64,000 nt of DNA from Blastocatellia bacterium (GTDB lineage Bacteria > Acidobacteriota > Blastocatellia > Pyrinomonadales > Pyrinomonadaceae): NCBI GenBank assembly GCA_003168335.1, contig PMSM01000014.1:1-64000 (forward strand), in the 5' to 3' direction. The translations under genes were made by a program, and so were the position numbers. The notes below the pieces were generated by a model, which did no database searches, was not told where the DNA came from, and worked only from the letters and a program-made list of their open reading frames with translations. Within the stretch, counting starts at the first letter, position 1, and every line of letters begins with the position of its first letter. Shown in pieces: positions 26,068-42,609 of this stretch.

Positions 26068-26340
26068 GCGGGGCAGTAGACCGACCGTGAGGGAGGGCGT
26101 TACAGAACCGCGAGCGGTAGCAAGCGGGATAAGAACGCAACCTGCGCCATCACCTGGATTGAGCCTCCAAGGATTCTCTCGGAAGTTGAGTCCTTATCCC
26201 GCTCGCTACCGCTCGCGGTTCTGTACCGAATGGACCGGGTCTTCACGCTGACGGCGTGAGATGTAATAGCCGGGAGGCAACCCCCCTGGGAGCCGCGACC
26301 ACACAAATTTATTTGAGCGCTGAAGGGGCGACATGATGGT
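26068..26340. repeat. Composite palindromic repeat containing a REP doublet
   Basis: A 32-base block (26068-26099, with GACCGTGAGGGAGG) recurs at 29671-29702. It is followed by two 32-base inverted arms, 26102-26133 and 26193-26224 (one mismatch, core ACCGCGAGCGGTAGC), forming a REP doublet. Then 26241-26338 carries CACGCTGACGGCGTGAGATG and TTTGAGCGCTGAAGG, recurring at 27169-27262. The doublet thus appears to sit inside an older repeat. Confidence 0.75.
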
Positions 26341-26577: not shown

Positions 26578-27117
26578 ATGAAAAAACAAACCAATCACAG
26601 CTGTCAGTTTCTCCTGGCAACAATCATTACGTTCGGCGTGTGGACTCCGGCTTTCGCGCAGCTGCAAAACAATCATTTTGCGCTTAACAACATTTTCCCG
26701 GTAACTGCGAACGAAAATGTTTGTTTGAAAAACGCGCCAGAGATTTCCAGTTTTACTTACACCAAACCAAATAGCTTGTTTGCAGCTAATTATAACGATT
26801 CTCCGAAGCCGGATTTTTCGGCGATGGAGCAATGGTACGAGATTGTCAAATACCAATATGACACTTCGGCAGGCTTTAACTTTCCATTGTTCGTTGTCGT
26901 AATCAAGAAGAAAGTGGAAAATGCACCGATACATTTTCATATAGGGTGGTTTGATGCGGACGGGGTCCGCGTCGGCATCGACGCCAATTTGATACCCGTG
27001 GCGGGCAATCTAAACACTGTGCCGGTTGGCGAACCCTTTCGGCTTCGTGCTTATGCGCCGGCTGAGAAGGACATGGCAAAAGTAAAATCCATCGTGGTTA
27101 AAAGGATTTTAGACTGA
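26578..27117 (+). CDS. Secreted protein of unknown function
   Basis: A 179-residue protein with a signal peptide (hydrophobic about 11-25, cleavage near AFAQL). The mature part looks like a beta-rich domain (EQWYEIVKYQYDTSAGFNFPLFVVVIKKKVE, FHIGWFDADGVRVG, FRLRAYAPAEKD). Base composition is AT-richer than neighbouring genes, which may point to recent arrival. AAAGGTGAAAGAAG precedes the ATG. No family recognised. About 240 bases upstream hold no gene. Confidence 0.65.
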   Translation: MKKQTNHSCQFLLATIITFGVWTPAFAQLQNNHFALNNIFPVTANENVCLKNAPEISSFTYTKPNSLFAANYNDSPKPDFSAMEQWYEIVKYQYDTSAGFNFPLFVVVIKKKVENAPIHFHIGWFDADGVRVGIDANLIPVAGNLNTVPVGEPFRLRAYAPAEKDMAKVKSIVVKRILD

Positions 27118-27168: not shown

Positions 27169-27262
27169 CTTCACGCTGAAGGCGTGAGATGTAATAGCCA
27201 GGGGCAACGCCCCTGGATCGATAGTCATACAAATTGATTTGAGCGCTGAAGGCACGACATAA
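27169..27262. repeat. Second copy of the palindromic repeat
   Basis: It matches 26241-26338 in order: CTTCACGCTGAAGGCGTGAG, then a GCCAGGGGCAACGCCCCTGG hairpin, then AAATTGATTTGAGCGCTGAA. Shorter pieces are at 29732-29765 and 30462-30475. Confidence 0.7.
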
Positions 27263-27271
27263 CGGAGAATT

Positions 27272-27544
27272 GATCAATCTCATTCCAATTTGCTCCTGAT
27301 GCGATCGAGTTAGGGGCAAAAGAAACTTGATTAGTCGGTAATCAAATCGAGCCAGTTACAAAAGCAACTCCAACAGCTGCTGAACAAGTCGAGTTAGCGG
27401 CAGAACCAAATTCTCTAACCACTACCCAAATTGATTTAGCGACCAGAGCAACGTGATTAGCTGCTGTAGCAATGGCGTTAGCGACAAAAGCAATCCATTT
27501 TGTCCCTAATCAAATTACTTCTGGAGCAAAACTGCCGATCTTAG
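27272..27544. repeat. Degenerate tandem array, 13 units of 21 bases
   Basis: Aligning the sequence in blocks of exactly 21 gives 13 units without gaps from 27272 to 27544. Most units end TTAG (seven of them) or CAG/TTTG. Positions 8-12 are usually AGCAA, ATCAA or similar, and CTGC or CGGC is common at the start. Units differ at many positions, so the array is old or is held only at these positions. Read in one plus-strand frame it gives heptads such as LAAEPNS and LATKAIH, but two TGA stops interrupt it. No flanking gene includes it. Confidence 0.75.
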
Positions 27545-27654
27545 AGTAAATCCAGTGGCTTTCGGGGCTTCGGGCATCGTGATAGCCACTGTAACTAACA
27601 GAATATACAGCGATTAAGCTGCGCTTGTAAAAATACTTGTTAAATAGCTTTTTT

Positions 27655-27718
27655 AGGAGTAGCCTCTCTGCGTTTCGCAGGCTGTATCCACTCCCTTTCC
27701 TCTGAAAGGACTACTCCT
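27655..27718 (+). promoter_or_regulatory. Structured leader directly before the FN3 gene start
   Basis: AGGAGTAG (27655-27662) is the inverted complement of CTACTCCT (27711-27718), which touches the ATG at 27719. An inner stem, CTGCGTTTCGCAG (27668-27680), lies between. The pairing would hold the region between the ribosome site (AAAGGA, 27705-27710) and the start codon in a stem, so it could control translation. Confidence 0.5.
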
Positions 27719-30740: not shown

Positions 30741-31386
30741 CAGTACCGCGAGCGGTAGCGACCGGGTTGCAATAATAGTTACTTGATCGTCTACATAAGA
30801 ACGCGATATAAGACGCGTCCTCTCATGTGGAACGACGCTGATATTCCGCTGGCCGATCTGATCACGTTTCGATGCCACGGCACGTGGTTGCATGGAGATG
30901 AGCGCGGCTCGATCGATCGTTTCCACAATCGATTCAAGTCTCCTTACATTGATTCAAACAGGAGATGGCATCGGCACAATAGGCAGGTTCTTGAGGGCGA
31001 GCCGGTCACGTTGGACGCGTCGCAGCGCAAATCAATTGATGCGGCACTCCGAGAAACCTGCACCATTCGCAAATGGCATTTGCACGCAGGTAACGTCAGG
31101 ACCAACCATGTCCATGCGGTCGTCTCAATCGGACTAATCAAGCCTGAACGCGCTCTCATTGCGTTAAAGGCAAACGCCACCAGGCAAATGCGGCAGGATG
31201 GTTGTTGGCGACACGATTACAGCCCATGGGCAGAGAAAGGTAGCAAGCGATCCCTTTGGTAAATTGCGCAGCGTGGCGCGCGCAATTGACTACGTGCTTT
31301 ATGAGCAGGGCGATGAACTGCCGGACTTTGACGATAACTGAAGCTCCACTTGTTACCCGGTCGCTACCGCTCCCGGTACTGACCTC
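30736..31386 (+). mobile_element. REP-flanked RAYT transposon-like element
   Basis: Two 32-base inverted REPs, 30736-30767 and 31355-31386 (one mismatch, core GTACCGCGAGCGGTAGCGAC), bracket a tyrosine transposase frame. This is the layout of REP-associated tyrosine transposases. The same REP core occurs as a doublet at 26102-26224 and within 7323-7338, and its head GAGGTCAGTACC is shared by the arm at 38327-38360. Confidence 0.8.
30825..31342 (+). pseudogene. REP-associated tyrosine transposase (RAYT), frameshifted
   Basis: The HUH-like motif appears as RTNHVHAVVS, and the family start reads MWNDADIPLADLITFRCHGTWLHGDERGS. The main frame meets TAA at 31260-31262 after SKRSLW. A frame shifted by one base then gives KLRSVARAIDYVLYEQGDELPDFDDN and a stop at 31342, the normal C-terminus of this family. 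One base has therefore been gained or lost near 31258. The catalytic Tyr is probably in DYVLYEQ or upstream; the enzyme is likely inactive unless frameshifting occurs. Confidence 0.75.
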
Positions 31387-41406: not shown

Positions 41407-42609
41407 ATGAAAACAAATTACATCAGTCGGTTCGGTATGTCGCTCGTAATCGGCGCGGTTGCTTTATTAGCCATGAGCGGAGCAGCGAACGCGCAAGGCC
41501 GCGGGGATCGGCAGCCACGGCAAAAAGACAAGGACACCCAACCGCAGGCCCAGTCCCAACAGCCGCAGCGTCAATCGCGGCAGAGTAATAATCAGCAACA
41601 GCAGCAACAGCAGGGCCAGCAGCAACGACAAGTTCAGAATCAGCAACGGCAAGCTCAGGACCAGCAAAGACAGACACAACAGGGACAGCAGCGCGATGAG
41701 CAGCGCCGCATTGCCGACCAACAGCAACGACAAGTCCAGGATCAGCAAAGGCAAACGCAACAGCGTCAGCAGCAACAACAGCAGCAGCAACAGAGCCAGG
41801 ACCAGCGTCGCGTCTCCGATCAGCAACAGCGCCAGGCCAATACCCAGCCTCGTTACGCTGACCAGCAAGGGCAACTCGAACAGCAACGGCAAGCTCAGCA
41901 AGCCCAGCGCGCGACGCAACAGCGTCAGTCGCAGCAGCGTGTAAATGACCAGCAGCAGCGACAGGTACGCAACACGCAGAACCGCAACGGGCAGAATCAA
42001 GCTCAACAGGGAGCATGGTCCAACCAGCAGCGCGACCAGTGGCGTCGTCAAGAGCAGCAGTCCTGGCGTCAACGCGAGTCGCAGTTTCGCTCCAGCCAGT
42101 CTCAACGCAATCAAGCATGGTGGCAACAGCGCCAGGTATTCCTGCAACAACAAAGGCGCAGCAATCAGTGGCGTTTCGAACAAAGCTATTGGCAGCGCCT
42201 GCGCCAGGACCAGTTGAGGTTGCAGAACTTTTCTTATTACGATTACGGCACGCCAATCTATGGTTACAATCGCGGGGGACAGTTCTATCAGCTAAACCAG
42301 TATGGCGCTGATTTACTGAGACGCGCAGTCGATTCAGGTTACGAGGAAGGTTTTCGCGCGGGCCAGGCGGATCGTCAGGACAGTTGGCAATTCGATCCAG
42401 AGAACTGCGACGCGTTTCAGGATGCCAGTTATGGTTACGACGGATACTATGTCGACGTTGCCGAGTATCAGAACTACTTTCGCGAAGGTTTTCGCCGGGG
42501 CTATGAAGACGGCTACTACGGCCGCAACCAGTACGGAACCTACTCGAACGGTAGGTACAGTATCCTTGGCGACGTCTTGAACCTGATCCTGGATCTCAGG
42601 CGGTTCTAG
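41407..42609 (+). CDS. Secreted glutamine-rich disordered protein with folded C-terminus
   Basis: A 400-residue protein. Residues 1-29 are a signal peptide (LVIGAVALLAMSGAANAQG). About residues 30-250 are dominated by Gln, Arg, Asn and Ser with runs of Q and repeats such as DQQRQ; such regions form disordered or aggregating segments. Residues about 275-400 are different and Tyr/Gly-rich, with two related blocks, SGYEEGFRAGQADRQ and EGFRRGYEDGYYG. Several frames on the other strand are open only because of the biased codons. A prion-like or envelope structural role is possible but unproven. A terminator follows. Confidence 0.75.
   Translation: MKTNYISRFGMSLVIGAVALLAMSGAANAQGRGDRQPRQKDKDTQPQAQSQQPQRQSRQSNNQQQQQQQGQQQRQVQNQQRQAQDQQRQTQQGQQRDEQRRIADQQQRQVQDQQRQTQQRQQQQQQQQQSQDQRRVSDQQQRQANTQPRYADQQGQLEQQRQAQQAQRATQQRQSQQRVNDQQQRQVRNTQNRNGQNQAQQGAWSNQQRDQWRRQEQQSWRQRESQFRSSQSQRNQAWWQQRQVFLQQQRRSNQWRFEQSYWQRLRQDQLRLQNFSYYDYGTPIYGYNRGGQFYQLNQYGADLLRRAVDSGYEEGFRAGQADRQDSWQFDPENCDAFQDASYGYDGYYVDVAEYQNYFREGFRRGYEDGYYGRNQYGTYSNGRYSILGDVLNLILDLRRF

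Follow-up and report, generated by a model that had tools for sequence, protein, structure and literature searches.

The window, a 64,000-nt stretch of DNA, carries a degenerate array of 21-bp period just upstream of a gene for a fibronectin type III (FN3) protein (Table 1). As the preliminary description had proposed, the array at 27272-27544 is built of 13 gapless 21-base blocks. Its autocorrelation at lags of 21, 42, 63 and 84 was 0.43, 0.52, 0.40 and 0.57 against a background of ~0.26, corresponding to z = 6.3, 9.0, 4.7 and 10.0 relative to 5000 dinucleotide-preserving shuffles, none of which (0/5000) matched any of these values; the peaks predicted at 21 and 42 are thus present. Lag 84 was the strongest, and the array is hierarchical, with an 84-bp unit of four 21-mers occurring about three times over and the best matches falling between blocks 1/5/9, 3/7/11 and 2/10. 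The blocks at both ends are weak, leaving a clear core at ~27293-27523 (11 units). Tandem Repeats Finder missed the array even at a score of 30, because it is too degenerate. In an unbiased scan of periods from 10 to 60 bp, it was one of just two strong arrays in the window; the other strong 21-bp-periodic stretch (41539-41800) is CAG/CAA-rich and apparently coding, with Gln repeats. The window array is itself non-coding, as originally suggested, with stop codons in all six frames.

Table 1. Features at the array locus (window coordinates)
Feature	Position	Strand	Evidence
Acido-Lenti-1-like RNA/repeat	27172..27216	-	RF01687, 32.7 bits, below gathering 37
Degenerate 21-bp-period array	27272..27544	.	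Autocorrelation and shuffles, unit alignments, dyad symmetry z = 4.7
Leader between array and FN3 gene, 174 nt	27545..27718	+	Same-genome copies elsewhere similar from ~-116 to -190
Promoter-like TTTACA-18-TATATT, would read from leader into array	27602..27631	-	Motif count
Hairpin AGGAGTAG...CTACTCCT ending at FN3 start codon	27654..27718	+	RNA fold
FN3 gene, 208 aa	27719..28345	+	Pfam fn3, AlphaFold, paralogues C4/C2/C3

Upstream of the array, a 179-aa gene (26578-27117), for which we found neither a Pfam match nor a relative in the genus, precedes the Acido-Lenti-1-like element. Two 83% similar repeat copies contain this element (26241-26334 and 27170-27261, the latter immediately before the array). 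Upstream of the FN3 array at L155 there is a third (36.8 bits), and none was present in the other 16 loci scanned. The likeness to Acido-Lenti-1 RNA concerns these sub-threshold copies, that in the window being ~60 bp upstream of the array, but the element measures 46 nt, lies outside the array and is not the array itself. At 26105-26220, ACAGAACCGCGAGCGGTAGCAAGCGGGATAAG and its inverted copy form a REP-like inverted pair, and a RAYT-like Y1 transposase gene lies at 30783-31262 (Pfam Y1_Tnp 21.9 bits, just under the cut-off). This gene, 3 kb from the array, belongs with the separate REP-like pair at ~26.1-26.2 kb, from which it is ~4.5 kb distant. Rfam matches to MIR533, MIR3444, SmY and VR-RNA fell below gathering thresholds and were dismissed as implausible.

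The C-terminus of the FN3 protein is a fibronectin type III domain (Pfam fn3, residues 120-204, 28.3 bits against a cut-off of 25), and its top Foldseek matches were the FN3 domains of titin and fibronectin. The AlphaFold model pairs this domain with a helical N-terminal half (mean pLDDT 85.6, pTM 0.50). Modelled alone, the helical N-terminal domain of ~100 aa reached a pLDDT of 88.8, had no match among PDB folds with E <= 0.001 and gave nothing convincing in sequence or fold searches of Pfam and PDB. Judged by eye, no signal peptide is apparent and the protein looks cytosolic. Purifying selection acts on the gene (dN/dS 0.12-0.6), and its relatives are patchily distributed in Acidobacteriota and Verrucomicrobiota, reaching nine per genome, with paralogues at C4, C2 and C3 in the window's genome. 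Copies cluster mostly by genome, and one clade unites Pyrinomonadaceae with a Spartobacteria genome. Viral contigs, phages and plasmids yielded no FN3-family relatives: phage matches to the protein were due to the FN3 domain alone, and 72,556 plasmids gave no match in a search with two FN3 relatives as queries.

The preliminary description had expected the array to recur in related genomes, which held for its period at the same gene and failed for its sequence. BLAST of the window-array DNA against 97 relatives returned short chance matches only, including 7-bp GTCATTT and CCCTGAA repeats; at L017:1221-1510 of a related genome, 7-base GTCATTT/GTCACTT tandem repeats and their inverse lie between ribosomal protein genes. 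FN3 paralogues within the genus also have 21-bp arrays upstream, with unrelated sequences. Among named genomes, a scan recovered 13 FN3 loci from Acidobacteriota and from Verrucomicrobiota (Spartobacteria, Chthoniobacterales). Those closest to the window gene are from Pyrinomonadaceae (Blastocatellia, Acidobacteriota), so that sequence relationship puts the window's genome near this family, and nearly all evaluable loci had a 21/42-bp array upstream. We then scored the 1.5 kb upstream of the 36 FN3 copies with enough upstream DNA (periods 10-60 bp, score at least 0.15). The best period was 21 or 42 in 28 copies, and 41 and 44 in two others. Downstream, it was 21 or 42 in 2 of 35 (Fisher p = 2e-10, for copies that are related and not independent), and 1.5-kb windows drawn at random did so in 1/260 cases for the window's genome (G000) and in 12/260 for an array-rich relative (G039). 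Further FN3 loci with enough upstream DNA agreed in six of eight cases, the others being one of period 20 and one partial match. The position of the array just before an FN3 gene, already pointed out at the outset, is therefore meaningful. Against a cassette reading, eight of the 36 copies lack a clear 21/42 array, mostly divergent Verrucomicrobiota and one in the window's genome. An exception to the 21-bp rule is found at L248 (G028), where the FN3 relative is divergent and the array before it (-190 to -80 relative to the gene) consists of palindromic AAATTCCGCGGGAATTTG units with a period of 20.

Comparison of copies within one genome delimited the conserved part. Leader and gene have 72-90% DNA identity between same-genome copies, whose arrays are unrelated and have the period alone in common, and similarity begins at the array edge. 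In a Spartobacteria genome with nine matches (G370), copies align from ~-116/-190 to +701, so that leader, gene and a tail of ~85 nt are common to them and the arrays are not; two of these copies also have 123 bp in common upstream of the array. Two copies in G039 are 90% identical over leader and gene with unrelated arrays, and FN3 pieces in this genome end at contig ends, a pattern that near-identical copies would produce by interrupting the assembly. The window leader ends in a hairpin over its last 65 nt (-24.5 kcal/mol, z = -1.9) that is weak taken alone, and promoter-like TTGnnn/TAnnnT motifs were seen by eye between array and gene at several loci. These comparisons show a repeated gene cassette with the array as its non-coding 5' module; the cassette runs from a locus-specific array of dyad-symmetric 21-bp units through the leader and the FN3 gene to the tail. 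Between copies of one genome, gene and leader are kept, and the array sequence is replaced with only its 21-bp register retained. The cassette showed neither a transposase-like motif nor terminal repeats, a point against the best reading given below.

Arrays also occur away from the gene. The heptad reading of the window array, searched as a protein solely as a probe for the period, retrieved same-period arrays of other sequences in G028, G029 and many loci of G039. The bias of this probe was removed by a 10-60 bp period scan of ~400 kb each of G039 and G000 (~0.46 Mb of the latter being sampled). Period 21 or 42 was found in seven of nine strong arrays in G039, and the sole strong array in the sampled chunks of G000 has a period of 42, as does the window array. 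The scanned 21/42-bp arrays are intergenic, many of them between convergent genes. Some stand without an FN3 gene, such as the solo array of alternating 21-mers with 42-bp period at L127:1081-1460 (G000 contig 1, ~301.1-301.5 kb). Solo-array pairs in G039 have common units and unrelated flanks (for example L077/L078, 82%), showing that arrays spread without the gene, and no FN3 remnants were found beside the solo arrays of that genome.

The period is held strictly. The best-matching lag was an exact multiple of 21 in 391 of 398 cases, even at ~45% unit identity, in a test eased by delimiting array cores with exact lags of 21. Young arrays (>85% alike) and old arrays have the period in common and unrelated sequences, implying that the period is imposed rather than inherited. 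These observations bear on a neutral satellite, in which slippage-prone DNA would expand and decay without function in a gene-poor gap of the cassette. Complete sequence turnover, solo arrays and foldbacks resembling recent mutational events are what such a satellite would leave, but the period stays at 21/42 in sequence-unrelated arrays where 10-60 bp was allowed, the register survives at ~45% identity, and the arrays are bound to one gene family in two phyla. We consider a neutral origin quite unlikely.

Besides their rhythm, the units have two-fold symmetry. Dyad symmetry of the unit exceeded z = 2 relative to column-permuted controls in 24 of 37 arrays, the window array included. Perfect foldbacks of 29-32 bp, with loops of 3-7 nt, are present in several arrays (L243 has one of 31 bp around a 3-nt loop, L080 one of 32 bp around a 4-nt loop); none appeared in shuffles, and the foldbacks are carried by young arrays. 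Template switching at quasipalindromes is described in E. coli (PMC7202029), and the array foldbacks would be products of this type. An array would then grow by tandem duplication (21 to 42 to 84) together with foldback template switching, a step that would explain both the inverted units and the perfect foldbacks.

Since neighbouring inverted units can make long hairpins with 3-nt loops, the array might instead be transcribed as a string of hairpins, a diversifying non-coding RNA bound by the FN3 protein as an RNA-protein pair. Two copies in genome G335 have an extra 190-bp element upstream of the array, including a promoter-like TTGACA site and a conserved leader of ~40 nt immediately before the array; a third copy retains this leader in part. 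Transcription through the array is therefore possible in this genome. At L169 and L173, the conserved TTGACA and the 40-nt motif GATGCGAGC...GAGCTCCAAAAACAACCAGCTG lie before the array at ~-880 to -640, a possible start of an array transcript, and the motif is also present in L171. The window has a minus-strand promoter-like site directed into the array, but at chance level (1 found against 1.0 expected), and no conserved element was found upstream of the array in the G039 copies. Overall counts of G-T and A-C pairs are level (503 vs 500), MFE does not consistently favour either strand, and the window array folds with z of ~-1.8 on both strands. The missing G-T excess and strand preference favour DNA over a one-strand RNA and led us to disfavour one-strand RNA hairpins. 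An RNA role is on the whole unlikely, if less so for G335.

Two further readings came from the preliminary description, which had suggested phased A-tracts that bend the DNA or a decayed heptad-repeat gene. Bending is unsupported because the A+T rhythm of the window array is strongest at 7 bp and not at 10.5 bp (A+T/G+C signal 13.0 vs 4.2), and it was rejected across 43 arrays, in which the 10.5-bp harmonic was not raised (mean 5.31, against 9.71 at 7 bp). A fast-evolving heptad-repeat (coiled-coil) peptide, decayed in the window copy, would account for a period of seven codons. The frame at 27295 reads PDAIELG/AKET*LV/GNQIEPV with just two TGA codons, at least one frame is open in 38 of 43 arrays, and the R/Y signal at 3 bp is raised. 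Over 42 arrays there is also an excess of open frames, which falls to a weak one once the number of stops is fixed (90 vs 73.7 expected; p = 0.007 for frames, 0.04 for arrays). Unit variation, however, shows no codon-position bias in any array tested (lowest p = 0.08), open frames are equal on both strands (37 vs 33), stops interrupt all six frames in the window array and several others, and consensus units differ wholly between copies. Dyad symmetry pairs frames, and the leftover excess may arise from its mirroring of stops into paired frames. Checked on both strands, a decayed heptad gene was rejected as the main reading, and array-encoded peptides appear very improbable.

We also compared the arrays with known repeat systems. 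Plasmid iterons and partition sites consist of helically phased direct repeats of 17-22 bp that adjoin the gene for the protein binding them. Our arrays resemble them as 21-bp direct repeats next to a gene; unlike them, they are chromosomal, number several per genome and have an unconserved unit sequence that differs per locus. CRISPR offers a regular non-coding array next to a conserved gene with sequence turnover, whereas here there is no constant repeat with unique spacers, the whole 21-mer shows graded divergence along the array, and no cas gene is among the flanking reading frames listed. Intergenic VNTRs and minisatellites share tandem duplication and turnover, but the present period is fixed across unrelated sequences and phyla and tied to one gene family. 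REP/REPIN sequences with RAYT are short, dyad-symmetric extragenic repeats, some in tandem clusters, that are linked to a gene and scattered around the genome (PMC3733652). The arrays match them in symmetry, gene link and dispersal, but are strictly 21-bp head-to-tail with a different sequence at each locus of one genome, and their partner encodes an FN3 protein, not a Y1 transposase. Counting a REP tag when present in half of the units of an array, GTAG or CTAC occurred in 0/43 arrays, CGTC in 4/43 and GACG in 2/43. The array thus fails the defining features of REP/REPIN, CRISPR, iterons, A-tract bends and heptad genes.

The best reading, which we hold at about an even chance, is a repeated, probably mobile FN3 cassette with a hypervariable, cis-acting 21-bp DNA array. 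The array would act as DNA, its two-fold-symmetric sites repeating at every second helical turn like the rungs of a ladder. A dimeric protein, either the FN3 protein or a partner, would assemble there to control the cassette or to mobilise it, and solo arrays would be its remnants or non-autonomous offspring. Such a scaffold for a dimeric protein is perhaps what the array provides, but units vary widely inside one array, more than a single specific binder would lead one to expect, and this counts against it. Slightly better than even, in our judgement, is the broader proposal of a new kind of two-part bacterial element that has been copied both inside phyla and from one to another. It would join a conserved FN3-adaptor gene to a hypervariable array, free in sequence but held to a period of 21 bp and to two-fold symmetry, and an active mechanism of duplication and foldback copying would rewrite the array at each locus.

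In the open-access literature we found no description of a 21-bp array paired with an FN3 gene. Any novelty would lie in the pairing and in a fixed period that does not depend on sequence; tandem repeats in themselves are common, and priority cannot be claimed. Ordinary homology searches miss such arrays, as BLAST and Tandem Repeats Finder fail on the relatives of the window array, and 21-bp periodicity upstream of FN3-family genes provides a search rule for more cases. An FN3 family with a helical N-terminal domain is tied to a DNA feature set by rhythm and symmetry rather than sequence. In both phyla the gene is conserved and its neighbouring array is quickly rewritten, which points to an as yet undescribed system for mobility, regulation or the making of diversity.
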